Positions 8,492 through 14,111 of a stretch of DNA of 64,000 nt are shown here, one piece after another (position 1 is the first letter of the stretch; each line of letters starts with the position of its first letter). Under the pieces are notes generated by a model. That model was not told the origin of the DNA, did no database searches, and saw only the letters and a list, made by a program, of their open reading frames with translations. Where the stretch lies: the NCBI RefSeq assembly GCF_003634315.1, contig NZ_RBXL01000001.1, positions 4,754,501 to 4,818,500 on the forward strand, read 5' to 3'. The position numbers and the translations under genes were made by a program. The stretch is from Thiocapsa rosea (GTDB lineage: Bacteria; Pseudomonadota; Gammaproteobacteria; Chromatiales; Chromatiaceae).

Positions 8492-8642
8492 GTCGGGTAG
8501 CAGGGTGACCTTACGGTCACCCCGCCCCCTAAGGTAGGGTCGAGAACTGGCGCGCCGAGGTTAGGGTCCGGTGGATCCTCCAGCGCTTTCGCGCTGGCCC
8601 TCAGTCCGGCTCCCATGATCACGTTTCCAGCCCCCGCCACGT

Positions 8643-8676
8643 CAAACCCGGCGTGCCGTTTTCCGGCACCGGGCTT
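8643..8676 (-). ncRNA. Domain V of the inner intron
   Basis: A 34-nt hairpin on the minus strand: AAGCCCGGTGC, then the apical CGGAAAACG, then GCACGCCGGGTTTG. It has the AGC catalytic triad at its base and the two-nucleotide CG bulge on the 3' side that mark group II domain V. Confidence 0.75.
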
Positions 8677-8699
8677 TCCTGCCGACTTCACATCCAGGG

Positions 8700-10010
8700 T
8701 TATGAGACCGCTTGCACTGGGAGCGCTTTCGGCTTACGCAGCCCGATTCGGTACCCGTCGTAGAGCCCGAGCACCTCGTATAGCCACGTCCTACTCCACC
8801 TCTTCCAGCCAAAGCCCTGACGCTGCCGCGCGCGCATCAGATGGCGCCGAATCTTCTTCTCCACCCAATCTTGGACATACCCGAAACAGCGACTGGAGTG
8901 CCCCACCCGAAAGTAGCCTACCCACCCCCTGAGGATCGGATTGATCAAGGCGATCACCCGATCGATCGGCTGCGAGCGGTAGCGGCGGAACACGTCCTTG
9001 AGGCGTTGTAGGATCGCGGTACGCGCCTTCATCCGTGGCGTGTAACGCGCGCCCCAGACCCCGCGCCGAGTCTTGGCCCGGCGGAAGTCAAAGCCCAGGA
9101 AGCTGAATGCCCCTCCCCGGCTCAGGTCCAGCCGTCGTGTCTTGTCTTGATTGAGTTGCACATCGAGCTTGGCCAACTCCTCGACCAAGCGTCGCCAGGC
9201 CGCGTCCTTGAGCCAGTTCCACCGGCGATACCCATCGACCAAGATCACCAGGTCATCGGCATAACGGGCATACTCGATATAGGTATAGCGTCCGTTGCGG
9301 GTGACCTCCTTGGCCCGCTCCAGCATCCGGTCGACCTCGTTGAGGTAGAGGTTACTGAGCAGGGGTGAGATCACACCGCCTTGCGGAACGCCCCGCTTGC
9401 CACTGGCCTTGAGGATACGCTTGAGCAAGCCCAAGACCTGATCATCGCGGACCCGCTCCGCCACCTTCCCCAAGAGGAGATCGTGACGAACCGTGTCGAA
9501 GTAAGACGCCAGGTCCACATCAATCACATAGGTCTTGTTGCTCACAATGGCCTCGGCCACGCGCTGCACGGCTTGATGCGCCGTGCGCTTGGGTCGGTAT
9601 CCATAGCTTCCATCCTGGAAGTCAGCCTCGAAGATCGGCTCCAGAATCAGCTTGAGCGCCCCCTGGACCACGCGATCGCGAATGCAGGGAATCCCCAGGA
9701 CGCGCATGCGCCCGTCTCCCTTGGGAATCTCCCGGCGGCGATTCGGTTGCGGTCGGTAGGTTCCGATGACCAGCTCATCCCGGATGCCTTTCAGAAACGC
9801 CTCCACGCCAGCCGCCTCGATGGCCGCGAACGTCACCCCGTCACTGCCGGGGGCACCGTTGTTCGCTTTCGCCATCGCATAGGCCGCGTGCAGGGTCTCC
9901 TCTTTGCACACGTGGACGTAGAGTCCCCAGAAGCGCCAGGCCGGTTCAGCCTTCGCCTTGATGTAGATCCTCTTCCTCAGGTCTTGCAGATCGATGGGCG
10001 TCGTTGTCAT
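8700..10010 (-). CDS. ltrA: Group II intron reverse transcriptase/maturase (inner intron)
   Basis: 436 residues from the ATG at 10010, preceded by AGGGGCGAG. The order is an RT0/RT domain (NNGAPGSDGVTF, RRREIPKGDGRMRVLGIP, DGSYGYRPKRTAHQAV), the catalytic YADD (ARYADDLVILV, about residue 250), GGVISPLLSNLYLNE, then the thumb/maturase X domain (INPILRGWVGYFR). No HNH endonuclease domain is present. It would assist splicing of its own intron RNA and reverse-transcribe it during mobility. The reading frame is intact. Confidence 0.92.
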   Translation of the reverse strand: MTTTPIDLQDLRKRIYIKAKAEPAWRFWGLYVHVCKEETLHAAYAMAKANNGAPGSDGVTFAAIEAAGVEAFLKGIRDELVIGTYRPQPNRRREIPKGDGRMRVLGIPCIRDRVVQGALKLILEPIFEADFQDGSYGYRPKRTAHQAVQRVAEAIVSNKTYVIDVDLASYFDTVRHDLLLGKVAERVRDDQVLGLLKRILKASGKRGVPQGGVISPLLSNLYLNEVDRMLERAKEVTRNGRYTYIEYARYADDLVILVDGYRRWNWLKDAAWRRLVEELAKLDVQLNQDKTRRLDLSRGGAFSFLGFDFRRAKTRRGVWGARYTPRMKARTAILQRLKDVFRRYRSQPIDRVIALINPILRGWVGYFRVGHSSRCFGYVQDWVEKKIRRHLMRARQRQGFGWKRWSRTWLYEVLGLYDGYRIGLRKPKALPVQAVS

Positions 10011-10524
10011 CTCGCCCCTGCCTCCCATCTTGTTCAAGGATTGCCAACAGTAGGGCGCCTTCGCTCCACGGACATTACCCCGCTTCAGCGCTACTACGCG
10101 CCCATCCGCCACCCGCTCGCCTTCGGTCCACTTCCCGGTGTCGCCGGTTATAAGACCTACCTTGCTCCGGGGATTTCGCCCCGGGGCGAGACGGGCTTCT
10201 CCAGTTGCTTAGCGTGCCCTTGCCACCATGCCGTCGCTACTCACCCCGCCGAAGTGGTCGGATCGTCTCGGTCAGATTTCGACCCGCCATGCTGCCTTCG
10301 CCCCACGGTTGCAGGCTCGGCCTTCGGAGCTACGCATTGTCGAGGCCATCATTGCGTTCACTGTTGTTACGGCCTGGTGACTCGCCACCTCCCCAAGGAA
10401 GGTGCTGTCGATCGGCTTCAGAGTCTTGGTCTCCCGCCACCCTGCGATCCAAGCTACGGGGCTCCTGACTGTTACCCCGGCAGGACTGTCTCCTGCTGAA
10501 CACGCCAGCCTTCGCTGGACACAC

Positions 10525-10557
10525 AACCGTGCTTGCGACTTTCACCGCACACGGCTC
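10525..10557 (-). ncRNA. Domain V of the outer intron
   Basis: Minus-strand hairpin GAGCCGTGTGCGGTGAAAGT, then CGCAAGCACGGTT: a textbook bacterial domain V with GAAA-type apical loop and AGC triad. The inner intron starts at the next base, so the outer domain V is joined to its domain VI only after the inner intron is removed. Confidence 0.8.
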
Positions 10558-10616
10558 AAGCCTTGAAAAGGCACCGTGAAGCACCCGGCGATCAACGGGG
10601 TGGTGGCTGAGACGCG

Positions 10617-12068
10617 TCACGTCACGAGCCATGCAGGAGTCGCGACGGGTCGCCGTCCCCGCTGACGCCCGCGACGCTCGACGAAATAGTCGGCCTGTTG
10701 CGGGTCGTAGGGGTTGGCGTCGCCGCGGATCTTCACATGGCGTCGAATCGGGATACTCGCCATCCGAAAGAGCGTGACCGATCCGTCCGTGAACACCCAG
10801 TCTCGGCCGTCCCTGTGGGCATAATAGCGATCCTTGAGCCACTTATGGCCTTTTTGGGGATGTCGTCGTTTGGCCCAGTTCCATGTCATGCACCAGATCG
10901 CGTGATCGATGTCGCTGAAGACCTCCTTGCTCACGACATGGCGGTAGTAGTGTCCCCAGCCCCGGATGACCGGGTTGAGGCGCCGGATCAGGACGTCTTG
11001 CGTCAGGCTCGCACCTGCTTTCAGAATGTCCCGAACCTTTTCCTTGACCGCCGCGATACTGGGTTTGGCCGGTGTGATGAGCAGTTTTCCATGATACTTG
11101 CGTAGATTGAAGCCGAGGAAATCGAACCCGTCGTCGATATGCACGATCCGGGTTTTCGCTTCGGACAGCTCCAGGCCTCGCTCCATGAGGAACTGCTGCA
11201 CCTGCGGTTTGACCTCGTCGGCCAGCAGCGTCGAGGACGCGCCGGTGATGATGAAGTCGTCCGCGTAGCGGACCAGGTTGACCTTGTGACGGGGGTGGAA
11301 CCGCGCGCGCAGGCGCTGCTCTAGCCCGTCGAGGGCCATATTGGCCGCCGTCGGGGAGAGGATCCCCCCTTGCGGAGTGCCTTGCGTCGTAGGACGGAAG
11401 ACCCCGCGTTCCATGAAACCGGCCTTGAGCCAACCCCGCAGCTTCCCTTGGTTCGTCGGGACATGTTCGAGGAGCCACGGATGTGACACTTCATCGAAAC
11501 AGGCCCGGATATCCCCTTCCAGAATCCATTCGGCGCTGTGCCGTCGACACAGGGCGAGAAAACACCCGGCGATCGCATCATGCGCCCCGCGCGCCTTGCG
11601 AAAGCCATAGGAGCACGGGTCGGCCAGGGTTTCCGACACCGGATCCAGCGCCAGCAACTCCAGGGCCTGTTCGGCCCTGTCGGCGTGCACCGGAATGCCG
11701 AGCGGGCGGCGTTTTCCGTTTTTCTTGGGGATGTAGATCCGTCTAAGCGGTTTTGGCCGGTAGTCCCTTGCATTCAACCGATGGGCTTGTCGCCACTTGC
11801 GCGCGGGGGTATTCAACAGCACACCATCGACCCCCGGCGTGTTCTTGCCCCGATTGGAGCTCACCCGCTGCACCGCCAAGAGTTTGGCGGCGAGCGAGTT
11901 GGCGAGCAGGCGTTGCAGCGACCGTACGCGGTGCCACTTGCCGGCTCTGACCGCCTTCACGATTCGCGCTTGGAGTCGGCCGACGAGACGACGTATCCTG
12001 GTCCAGTCGATGGCAAACCAGGGCGCCGTCCCATCCCGAGGGCCTTCAATGATGCCGAGGGCGATCAT
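10617..12068 (-). CDS. ltrA: Group II intron reverse transcriptase/maturase (outer intron), HNH domain lost
   Basis: 483 residues. It has RT motifs (SSNRGKNTPGVDGVL, RIYIPKKNGKRRPLGIPV, CSYGFRKARGAHDAI, TPQGGILSPTAANMALDG), the active-site VRYADDFIITGA, and the maturase domain (RLNPVIRGWGHYYRHVVSK and VKIRGDANPYDPQQADYF). Relatives continue into a Cys/His HNH nuclease domain. Here the protein ends about 25 residues after ANPYD, so second-strand nicking activity is probably missing. The RT core looks intact. Not closely similar to the inner maturase. Confidence 0.9.
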   Translation of the reverse strand: MIALGIIEGPRDGTAPWFAIDWTRIRRLVGRLQARIVKAVRAGKWHRVRSLQRLLANSLAAKLLAVQRVSSNRGKNTPGVDGVLLNTPARKWRQAHRLNARDYRPKPLRRIYIPKKNGKRRPLGIPVHADRAEQALELLALDPVSETLADPCSYGFRKARGAHDAIAGCFLALCRRHSAEWILEGDIRACFDEVSHPWLLEHVPTNQGKLRGWLKAGFMERGVFRPTTQGTPQGGILSPTAANMALDGLEQRLRARFHPRHKVNLVRYADDFIITGASSTLLADEVKPQVQQFLMERGLELSEAKTRIVHIDDGFDFLGFNLRKYHGKLLITPAKPSIAAVKEKVRDILKAGASLTQDVLIRRLNPVIRGWGHYYRHVVSKEVFSDIDHAIWCMTWNWAKRRHPQKGHKWLKDRYYAHRDGRDWVFTDGSVTLFRMASIPIRRHVKIRGDANPYDPQQADYFVERRGRQRGRRPVATPAWLVT

Positions 12069-12686
12069 CGTCTAAAGAAACCCGTCGGGTTGAGCCTGTC
12101 GTGGGCGTGTTTCGTGAGTCAAGACCCGCCGGAAGTCTGCCCCCTTTCGGGGTAGGGCAAAGTTTGAACCCCTATCCGACCCATTACGGATCGGCCTTCG
12201 CTTGCTCCGGCATCCTTTACCCGCTCGCCCGCGGGTCGACCCTTGCGGGCCGCTGTCCACCGTCCTTGTGGGAGCGATCGGGCTTACCACGTTTCGCATG
12301 TGTACCATTCCCGAAGGGGTTAGGCTCCGCCTCTCCGCCGGCAGCGCGACATCTGCGCGGGGCCAACATTGGAAGCCCCGACCTGACTGCCCACCTTTTG
12401 GTCCATGCCTGGTCAGCCTCTTTGGCATGTTCTTAGTAACGACGGCTCGACAGCGGTTCACCTGAGTTAGCCTTGCCCTTCAACCCCGGCTCCCGACCGC
12501 CTCGAGGCTGGCAGTCGCGACCTCCCCTCGCGGTTTGGTCACCCGTCTTATCGACGGAGGCTACCGTGTCCCGGACGCTTCGCACCTCGGGGTTACCCCC
12601 GACGCACGGCCCGGTAGGGTACCGGCGGCAGAACGCCGGATCTCTTTGATCTCCTTGATAAATACACATGCGACCTCGTGTCGCAC
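12069..12686 (-). other. Non-coding 5' part of the outer intron (domains I-III)
   Basis: 618 nt without a credible gene between the intron 5' end and the maturase gene. Open frames on both strands have no family features. This is the length and place expected for the structured ribozyme domains I-III. Confidence 0.6.
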
Positions 12687-12762
12687 GAATGGCACTAACT
12701 TAAGCCAAAACCGCTGTAAAAACAGTCCGTCCTGAGCGTCATCCGCAACGCGCGAGCGGCGC

Positions 12763-13547
12763 TCAACGCTGTTTCTTGGGGTGGCCATGTTCGCGGACCT
12801 CCTCCTGCGCGATCTTCCGCGGCTTGGTCAACAGCGGGTAGCTTTTCAGGCGTCGCTTCAAGGCGCGCGGCTCGATCCGACCGCCTCGTCGACCCACGCG
12901 GGGTTGGGCCATCAGCACCAACAGGGCATGGATGCAGACGCTGTCGTGTGTGCCGCCGCACTGCTGCACGCAGATCCAAATCTGCACGACATGCTTGAAG
13001 CTGAGCTGGCGCGGGATCTGGTCCGCCAGCAGAGCGGCCTGCGCCATCAAGAGCCGGATCAGATTGTAGGCCAAGAGGTAGACCCACAGTTCCTTGAGCG
13101 CCATCGCCGGGGTTTTGCAGCGCAGATGCTCCATGCCGAGCGTGGTCTTGAGGTTTCTCAGATCCAGCTCGACGTGCCAGCGCTGCCGGTACAGCACCTT
13201 GAGCATGGACTTGGGGGTCGCCTTGGGGCAGAGCAGCGTGGTGACCATGATCTTGCCGCCGGCCTGAAACTCGCGCACCTTCAGAGTCGCCGGGGCTTGC
13301 GCGTATTCCTCGGGGCTCATCCAGTCGGGTCGCTTCGTCGGCTTGCTCAGCACGATCAGGTGATCGCGCGTGCCGAGCCGCTCGCCGAGGCGGAAATCGG
13401 TGCTGCGCTTGCGCGCCCCGTGCTGCTCGAACAGCCCGTCCACGCCGCCGCGCACCAGCTCGCAGAGCAGAAAATAGGTCGCGTAGAAGGCGTCGCCGAG
13501 AAGGATCTCCCCGCTTTGGAGGCTGTCGAGCAGCTCGCGCAGCAGGG
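12763..13547 (-). pseudogene. IS4-family transposase, N-terminus missing
   Basis: The C-terminal part of an IS4-type DDE transposase: GEILLGDAFYATYFLLCELV (second Asp region), ERLGTRDHLIVL, then YRQRWHVELDLRNLKTTLGM (the Y-(2)-R-(3)-E-(6)-K signature) and LLAYNLIRLLMAQAA. The frame from the GTG at 13455 gives 230 residues. Homology extends to about 13547, where a type A repeat replaces the N-terminal half including the first catalytic Asp. The right-hand end (12687-12762) is the IS terminal region with GAATGGCACTAACTTAAG. Confidence 0.85.
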
Positions 13548-13574
13548 GAAAACCAGGGACAGACCACGGTTTCT
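13548..13574 (+). repeat. Dispersed repeat, type A
   Basis: GAAAACCAGGGACAGACCAC, then GGTTTCT. It marks the point where the IS4 transposase reading frame is cut off. Confidence 0.75.
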
Positions 13575-13715
13575 GGGCTATATCGGCAGATCGAGCTGAT
13601 CAGTGTCGGCCAACTCTTCCCACGGTCGGCCGGACGTGCCGGGCCTTCGGGACCGCACCGAGCCGATTTGGGATCACGCTTTGCCGCCCAGCCGAGATCG
13701 CGAGGAATTTGCGCC

Positions 13716-13967
13716 ATGAGCAAGAGTAACTACGCCTTGAGTACGCCGGAGAGCATTCTGGCGGCGGCACGCCGCGCCGCCAAGCGTGACGGCGTGAGCT
13801 TGAACCAGTTCATCAACACCGCCTTAGCTGAGAAGGTGGCCGCGCTGGCGACCGAAGAGGTATTCACGCACCGCGCCGCTCGGGCCGACCGAGCGCGCTT
13901 CCTGGATGTGCTGGAACGCCTTGGTCGGGAATCGCCACGGACAGGAGATGAACTCGACATCGACTGA
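13716..13967 (+). CDS. Small antitoxin-like protein (HicB/ribbon-helix-helix type)
   Basis: 83 residues: YALSTPESILAAARRAAKRD, then GVSLNQFINTALAEKVAALA and a charged C-terminus. The pattern of a beta strand followed by two helices with SLNQFIN is that of ribbon-helix-helix antitoxins often annotated HicB-like. GAGGAA lies upstream of the ATG. No toxin gene accompanies it; the next element is a type B repeat, so a partner may have been lost or never existed. Confidence 0.7.
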   Translation: MSKSNYALSTPESILAAARRAAKRDGVSLNQFINTALAEKVAALATEEVFTHRAARADRARFLDVLERLGRESPRTGDELDID

Positions 13968-13985
13968 CGAGAGCCCGACATCGGG

Positions 13986-14010
13986 GTCAGAGCAAACCGG
14001 GGACGGACCA
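13986..14010 (+). repeat. Dispersed repeat, type B, intact junction copy
   Basis: AGCAAACCGGGGACGGACCA, then continuing without interruption into GAATGGCACTAACTTAAG. This is the sequence that the outer group II intron splits at 8491/12687, so it shows the unoccupied target arrangement. Confidence 0.8.
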
Positions 14011-14111
14011 GAATGGCACTAACTTAAGCAAAAACTGCGGCAAAAAGAGCGGGTTCTGGCCGTAATCCAGCACGCGGAACCGGCGCTCAACGCTGTTTCT
14101 TGGGGTGGCCA
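14011..14111 (+). repeat. Short IS4-derived stub
   Basis: About 100 bp resembling the terminal region at 12687-12787: GAATGGCACTAACTTAAG, a variable middle, then CGGCGCTCAACGCTGTTTCT and TGGGGTGGCCA. The transposase is absent and a type A repeat follows directly. It looks like an internally deleted, MITE-like copy of the same element. Confidence 0.75.

Follow-up and report, generated by a model that had tools for sequence, protein, structure and literature searches.

Group II introns have their catalytic heart in domain V (DV), which is presumed to correspond to the U6 core of the spliceosome. Copertino and Hallick reportedly found in 1991 that the Euglena gracilis psbF twintron is spliced sequentially, inner intron first, and Dai and Zimmerly are said to have described in 2003 the homing of Methanosarcina acetivorans introns into related intron open reading frames (ORFs). 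The psbF element is presented as the first twintron, a group II intron within structural domain V of another (PMC8393795), and Thermosynechococcus elongatus as carrying several twintrons per genome in which one intron family, F3, enters a conserved site of another, F1 (Mohr et al. 2010, PMC2882425). The F3 site lies between two start codons of the F1 intron-encoded protein (IEP) gene in domain IV (DIV), and the inner introns lack ORFs (PMC2882425). Nests built by repeated homing of introns into introns occur in M. acetivorans (PMC4424553), the Trichodesmium introns T.e.I7 and T.e.I8 form a bacterial group II twintron with distantly related IEPs that is spliced sequentially in vivo (PMC4649490), and in Porphyridium one inner intron occupies a DIV site in two related outer introns (PMC4476101). 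Here we describe a twintron in a 64,000-nucleotide (nt) stretch of the Thiocapsa rosea genome (contig NZ_RBXL01000001.1, positions 4,754,501 to 4,818,500; hereafter the window), in which one group II intron lies inside DV of another. The inner element is very probably a mobile group II intron, lacking an endonuclease, with exon-binding sites (EBS1 and EBS2) set to the 3' strand of DV of other group II introns, a reading that we draw from sequence comparison.

The locus shares with Euglena psbF a group II intron in DV of another; psbF, however, is a chloroplast protein gene, whereas the element here is a full bacterial retroelement with many copies, several outer classes, and readable EBS-DV pairing (PMC8393795). 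As in T. elongatus, one intron family recurs at a conserved site of another, and the outer IEP is close to Protein Data Bank (PDB) chain 6me0_C, but the T. elongatus site is in DIV of one family, whereas the site here is the catalytic DV common to unrelated classes (PMC2882425). The insertion falls in DV and does not share the placement that marks the F3 type, which separates the start codons of the host intron's IEP gene. The nests of M. acetivorans also arose by repeated homing, there into related intron ORFs, going by the title of the report, and here into DV. The Trichodesmium twintron is likewise bacterial with two distantly related IEPs, but it is a single case with the inner intron in domain I of its host, whereas the insertion here is in DV and recurrent (PMC4649490). 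Among the RF02003 group-II-D1D4-4 introns, of which the inner intron is a full-length match, family membership is silent on target preference. Precedents therefore exist both for insertion into DV (Euglena) and for fixed-site homing of introns into introns; what appears to be new is a bacterial EBS set matched to DV of several classes, for which we found no earlier report in the open-licence literature, subscription papers lying largely beyond the search.

The first-pass annotation of the window had proposed a group II intron within a group II intron, and the structure bears this out. Removing the inner intron makes the outer one continuous, as seen both at empty and filled sites and in the fold of the joined flanks, which restores DV with a two-base bulge, domain VI (DVI) with a bulged A, and the 3' end. 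Two distinct maturase genes and two distinct DVs are present at the places indicated, together with two different D1 cores recognized by Rfam and with RVT_1 and GIIM domains in both ORFs. The outer DV was also located correctly (10525-10557): it scores 13 of 13 pairs when its last base is taken from beyond the insert, a score reached by 9 of 127,918 window positions. The inner intron starts GTGTG and ends CCCTAC, agreeing with group II ends (5' GUGYG, 3' AY); its D1 core spans RF02003 model positions 1-138 of 138 and scores 118.8 bits against a gathering cut-off of 49, and the fold of its last 146 nt (8679-8534) contains DV and a DVI in which an A is left unpaired ahead of the final stem.

Two details of the annotation had to be revised. 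The inner 5' end at 10524 stands, whereas filled and empty sites in the genome of a sister species, which define both ends unambiguously, move the 3' end by one base, from 8533 to 8534. The outer DV closes with C8533, the partner of G10557, so the insert lies inside DV, between its penultimate and last nucleotides, and not at the domain V/VI junction where it had been placed. The pair spanning the insert covaries, being G-C in outer introns of types A and B and A-U in those of type C. Apart from this one-base shift and the site inside DV, neither inner end fell elsewhere. Among the relatives compared, none carries the two introns in simple tandem, the arrangement that the annotation had set against its own proposal, and tandem introns are ruled out by the precise insertion seen at empty sites. 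The outer ends (12686 and 8492) are upheld by an intact copy of the outer target at 13989-14022, which reads TTAGTGCCATTC then TGGTCCGTCCCCGGTTTGCTCT without the intron. This copy lies 1.3 kb upstream of the outer intron, beside a DDE transposase ORF (window 12687-14022); if the outer target belongs to an insertion element, there are three levels of nesting.

The placement of the inner intron is matched by its guide sequences. In a blind covariation scan of 19 rows, comparing intron windows to about nt 440 with 20 target offsets, the top signal fell on EBS1 and a second cluster paired intron nt 184-193 with target positions of about -14 to -5, corresponding to EBS2. Between EBS1 and its intron-binding site (IBS1), 122 of 133 positions were paired (GU included) over 19 distinct rows, against a shuffled mean of 85.6 and with 0 of 20,000 shuffles as high, although the rows are related and the shuffles overstate their independence. 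Changes in EBS1 are accompanied by changes in the target that keep pairing (ATCCGTG with CACGGAT, TTCCGTA with TACGGAA, AACCGGA with TCCGGTT), and in one relative, L047, an EBS2 of GTGAGA is matched to the target TCTCAC.

The inner intron's own DV ends CCGGGUU, of which 4 nt in a row pair with its own EBS1. Among eight introns of the DV-inserted type and L048, the own DV likewise offers EBS1 a paired run of 0-4 nt, versus 5-7 in the target; given this weak pairing, the inner intron should not invade itself. We did not sustain the view that this own DV diverged to suit DV targeting: a DV of similar kind occurs in three relatives at other sites (L054, L055, and L112), so the divergence looks inherited.

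Table 1. Features of the nested introns in the window
Feature	Position	Strand	Remarks
Outer group II intron	8492..12686	minus	Rfam D1D4-7; 5' GTGCGAC at 12686, 3' ...CTACCCGAC at 8492; interrupted by inner intron
Inner group II intron	8534..10524	minus	1991 nt, GTGTGTCC...TCGACCCTAC; ends set by comparing occupied with unoccupied sites in the sister genome (G001)
Outer DV, nt 1-33 (GAGCCGTGTGCGGTGAAAGTCGCAAGCACGGTT)	10525..10557	minus	
Outer DV, nt 34 (last base)	8533	minus	Partner of G10557 after joining
Outer linker and DVI with bulged A	8492..8532	minus	Fold of joined flanks
Own DV of the inner intron, 3' end CCGGGTTT, poorly matched to EBS1	8644..8676	minus	
Inner DVI region with bulged A	8534..8643	minus	Fold
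Inner D1 core, RF02003 group-II-D1D4-4	10362..10498	minus	118.8 bits, E 5.3e-26
Outer D1 core, RF02012 group-II-D1D4-7	12489..12640	minus	112.9 bits, E 5.7e-23
Inner EBS1, AACCGTG (intron nt 215-221)	10304..10310	minus	Top of blind covariation scan, z 6.7
Inner EBS2 region, CAATGCGT (intron nt 186-193)	10332..10339	minus	Second independent scan cluster, z 4.6
IBS1 (CACGGTT), lower 3' strand of outer DV	10525..10531	minus	7/7 Watson-Crick with EBS1
IBS2 core (CGCA), upper 3' strand of outer DV	10534..10537	minus	Covariation scan and alignment read by eye
Inner reverse transcriptase (RT)/maturase ORF	8700..10112	minus	RVT_1 9.2e-31, GIIM 2.3e-16; YADD present
Outer RT/maturase ORF	10617..12068	minus	RVT_N, RVT_1, GIIM; YADD present, frame intact, 483 aa
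Outer target, uninterrupted copy	13989..14022	minus	

The insertion recurs at the same position of DV in this genome (G000) and in the genome of the sister species (G001). All seven full inner copies found here follow the ...ACGGTT of a DV; four of the outer introns are of type A and three of the unrelated type B, and the 3' flank continues into an intact DVI in six of the seven, locus L149 having lost it. In G001, where the inner intron is 98-99% identical to that of G000, all five copies whose 5' end is readable interrupt DV at this point too, in type A and type C outer introns, and two others (L151 and L156) have only a 3' side available, which is outer-intron sequence. Filled and empty sites can be compared directly in that genome: filled L153 and empty L121/L127 show 0/90 differences on the 3' side and 14/70 on the 5' side, and filled L150 differs from empty L125 (= L159) and L161 at 0/90 positions on the 3' side and at 2 or 1/70 on the 5' side. 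The annotation had looked to relatives carrying only the outer intron; these G001 sites supply them for another outer type, whereas an empty copy of the type-A intron was not found in this genome.

The inner copies of G000 show 0 mismatches over 1991 nt, one of them (L146) having one extra base, whereas among the outer introns the window's type-A copy departs from the other three at 69-70 of 2162 positions, with type B unrelated to them. Identical inner copies within diverged outer introns indicate recent separate insertions, though gene conversion could give the same pattern, and the near-identity of the dispersed inner copies suggests recent movement. Could there have been a single chance insertion, the composite having since multiplied through recombination or through the outer intron? 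Three type-A introns carrying the insert are 99.95-100% identical to each other, which fits composite movement for those three; in the same direction, no empty type-A copy was found in this genome. For the set as a whole we regard this explanation as highly improbable. The same inner intron occupies types A and B here and types A and C in G001, remaining identical where the outer introns are diverged or unrelated, and relatives elsewhere target DVs of other classes with a matching EBS1. Since the outer introns are unrelated, one chance nesting that then spread whole is rejected as the sole cause.

A census of DVs showed which potential sites are used. With the Rfam DV-DVI model RF00029 (E of 0.1 or less; 150 scored out of 294 candidates), 37 hits were obtained in this genome, comprising the 7 inner introns' own DVs, the 7 interrupted outer DVs (all ACGGTT), and 23 uninterrupted DVs ending CCGGAT (17), CCGGTT (4), or CCGGTG (2), with none ending ACGGTT. 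Two extra DVs (L254 and L255), near maturase hits without an Rfam hit, end CCGGAT and are unfilled. All 7 ACGGTT DVs found in this genome are therefore filled, as against 0 of the 25 others. The CCGGAT-ending DVs (the 17 Rfam hits plus L254 and L255) belong to multi-copy introns, and the inner intron fills none of these. One further match to the ACGGTT pattern, the 16th, on contig C2, is not a DV (score 8). DV-like elements were seen at L221, L222, L240, and L241 of G000 (GAGCCGGATGGTGTAACACTCCAAGTCCGGTTCTGCGAGG), by eye without an evident DVI in the stretch read, and L229-L231 and L233 of G001 resemble them; the four G000 elements may be another kind of group II-like RNA. On G001 locus L018, outer-type DVs stand in tandem (158-308 and 493-1088), the first empty (L161) and the second filled, and the filled one belongs to an apparently ORF-less D1D4-6 intron.

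To determine how widely this placement occurs, relatives found by a protein search blind to target (IEP identity 55-93%) were read at their junctions; most relatives below 50% identity aligned too poorly for the 5' end to be read. Of one search batch of 55 loci, 33 entered a first flank reading and 17 the junction reading (L045-L057, L066, L092, L094, and L095), 12 of the latter with a readable 5' end (L046-L051, L054-L057, L066, and L092). Plasmids were sampled at 12 of 219 records with a match, L108, whose 5' end was not found, being excluded from the junction reading. Among the 44 loci in that reading, 36 had a readable 5' junction, and 26 of these lay in a DV (score of at least 11) and 10 did not (score of 8 or less); the 26 include 12 from G000 and G001 and two repeated-site pairs (L105/L109 and L106/L111). 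DV sites occur in a Syntrophoarchaeum metagenome-assembled genome (MAG; L047, on a 7.8-kb contig), Acidobacteria (L049 and L057), Rhodothermales (L050 and L051), and a proteobacterial MAG (L056), taxon assignments of MAGs being open to contamination, and on plasmids of Bradyrhizobium, Cupriavidus, Paraburkholderia, and Caballeronia (L100-L102 and L104-L106). When the upstream same-strand D1 core is taken as the outer intron, the interrupted introns belong to at least four Rfam D1D4 classes: D1D4-2 (L047, L100, and L104), D1D4-4 (L101), D1D4-6 (L050, L105, and the G001 type C), and D1D4-7 (the window). For L056 and L057, where the contig begins less than 170 nt from the inner intron, the outer intron is known from DV and DVI alone. 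Beyond what the annotation had noted, the sequences compared here show the insertion recurring at one place in DV, with matching EBS1 and EBS2, across at least four classes of outer intron.

Several of these loci have features of their own. Group II matches D1D4-3, D1D4-1, D1D4-2, and D1D4-4 lie within about 2 kb on the Syntrophoarchaeum contig (L047:633-4449), a locus that we read as a nest or array of group II introns. The 3' flank of the Bradyrhizobium intron (L100) opens GTGTGTCCAGG, resembling the 5' end of another intron, which suggests that this DV site was entered more than once. At L052, an inner copy truncated at its 5' end adjoins an empty outer intron. Viral contigs yielded no relative by similarity and 0 pattern matches, and phages gave 4 records only, at about 38% identity, and no lead.

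The loci outside DV (L046, L048, L054, L055, L066, L092, L103, L107, L110, and L112) bear on how the target is chosen. Those scored (L107 excluded) pair their own sites with EBS1 at 5-7 of 7 positions, GU included. At the position predicted for EBS1, which had been placed before they were found, four further loci from Gammaproteobacteria (L249-L252) pair 6, 7, 7, and 7 of 7 (GU included; best of four offsets). DV-like pairing at such sites is low (7/12 for L046, 8/13 for L110, and 6-8 for L249-L252). L048 keeps DVI and the 3' strand of DV and has lost the 5' strand; it was counted as non-DV at the junctions and carries the DV label in the tree. In a Thiocystis MAG (L046, 93% IEP identity; L046:2665-2724 and from 4328), an inner copy lies outside any intron, within a coding sequence reminiscent, by eye, of cytochrome b561, at a site (GCATGCGCGGTT) that mimics the DV 3' strand; we regard it as an ectopic event.

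Recognition might conceivably follow hairpin shape instead of the base sequence read by EBS1 and EBS2. Class IIC introns use terminator or attC stems, and by definition an upstream stem-loop picks their target, with IBS1 present and EBS2-IBS2 pairing absent. DV is itself a stable hairpin, and the closest solved relative of the inner IEP is the GsI-IIC RT (best PDB match, E 4.2e-55). We nevertheless consider shape recognition improbable. None of the 25 DVs found in this genome without the matching 3' end is used, relatives at sites that are not DV-like match EBS1 (L046, L110, and L249-L252), and EBS1 and EBS2 both covary with the target. The inner intron also departs from the class IIC definition, in that EBS2-IBS2 covariation is present and relatives use sites without a DV-like hairpin. 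Recognition by the hairpin alone is rejected by the EBS1-matched sites that are not DV-like hairpins together with the covariation of both guides.

A number of observations weigh against reading the inner intron as a DV-targeting element. EBS1 pairing is imperfect for the DV targets of L049, L056, L101, L105, and L106; IBS2 spans few bases, and gaps are frequent in the alignment around EBS2. Copies from one genome are not independent, and recombination could have homogenized them. At least 11 ACGGTT DVs are empty in G001, where not all of the 41 hits were read, and two filled outer introns there have an altered DV catalytic triad (AGT in L150 and ATT in L154), normally AGC. Overall, 14 of 40 readable junctions fall outside an intact DV (13 of 39 once L092, at 43% identity, is set aside), and the four Gammaproteobacterial loci, found last and after the idea had formed, are all non-DV. 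The IEP tree, in which many branches are open, requires at least 6 changes of the DV label, or 5 without L046. The proposal that all relatives at 55% or more IEP identity target DV is rejected by the 14 non-DV junctions and by these label changes. For the late loci the prediction of DV failed and that of EBS1 was borne out; with the label changes on the tree, this indicates that DV targeting is not fixed. RF02003 relatives use DV or other sites according to their own EBS1, and DV targeting, judged from these sequences, is a recurrent setting of a retargetable intron lineage and not a fixed property.

It is also conceivable that the targeted insertion is real but the outer introns are dead, their DVs being mere landing pads with no sequential splicing. 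The altered triads of L150 and L154 and the loss of DVI in L149 point this way on sequence evidence; the L150 and L154 outer introns may be dead, and the triad change may be a sign of decay after insertion. For the twintrons of this genome, however, the AGC triad and full pairing are retained in each of the seven interrupted DVs, every one of the seven outer introns has an open ORF with YADD, and DVI is kept at six of the seven loci. We therefore consider this alternative rather unlikely, though by some way the hardest to set aside.

Both introns encode an RT/maturase, and a Pfam search found no endonuclease domain in either. The inner ORF is located between the inner D1 core and DV. YADD is kept by both IEPs at all seven loci of this genome. 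A 1-nt insertion in L146 (G000:C1:3419230-3421221) breaks the inner frame, and this copy would rely on others for splicing help. The closest PDB chain to the outer IEP, 6me0_C, is labelled 'Maturase reverse transcriptase' (E 9e-148); we take it to be T. elongatus TeI4h, and the outer intron is presumably of the CL-like class by its IEP.

For the inner intron as a mobile element aimed at DV, the following mechanism is proposed. Along the 3' strand of the DV hairpin, the upper part would pair with EBS2 (about UGCG here) and the lower part (CACGGUU) with EBS1 (AACCGUG), and the intron would reverse-splice into the DNA strand of DV, just before its last nucleotide. The inner IEP would then reverse-transcribe the inserted intron, a putative retrohoming into DNA. 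On expression the inner intron would be excised first, rebuilding DV, and the outer intron would be spliced afterward; splicing and mobility of the outer intron would depend on excision of the inner one. Landing within another mobile intron may provide a safe niche.

More broadly, we suggest with somewhat less than even confidence that group II introns may have repeatedly become hyperparasites of group II introns, with EBS1 and EBS2 set to the near-universal 3' strand of DV, hosts drawn from many intron classes, in an archaeal MAG as well as in bacteria, host splicing and mobility dependent on excision of the parasite, and a divergent own DV that prevents self-invasion. If this is true, DV, the most conserved sequence of the host, becomes a common target that would give the parasite both a niche and a built-in splicing order. 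Such nests would open the study of target choice, self-avoidance, and mutual control in nested introns, and would provide natural sets of EBS sequences.

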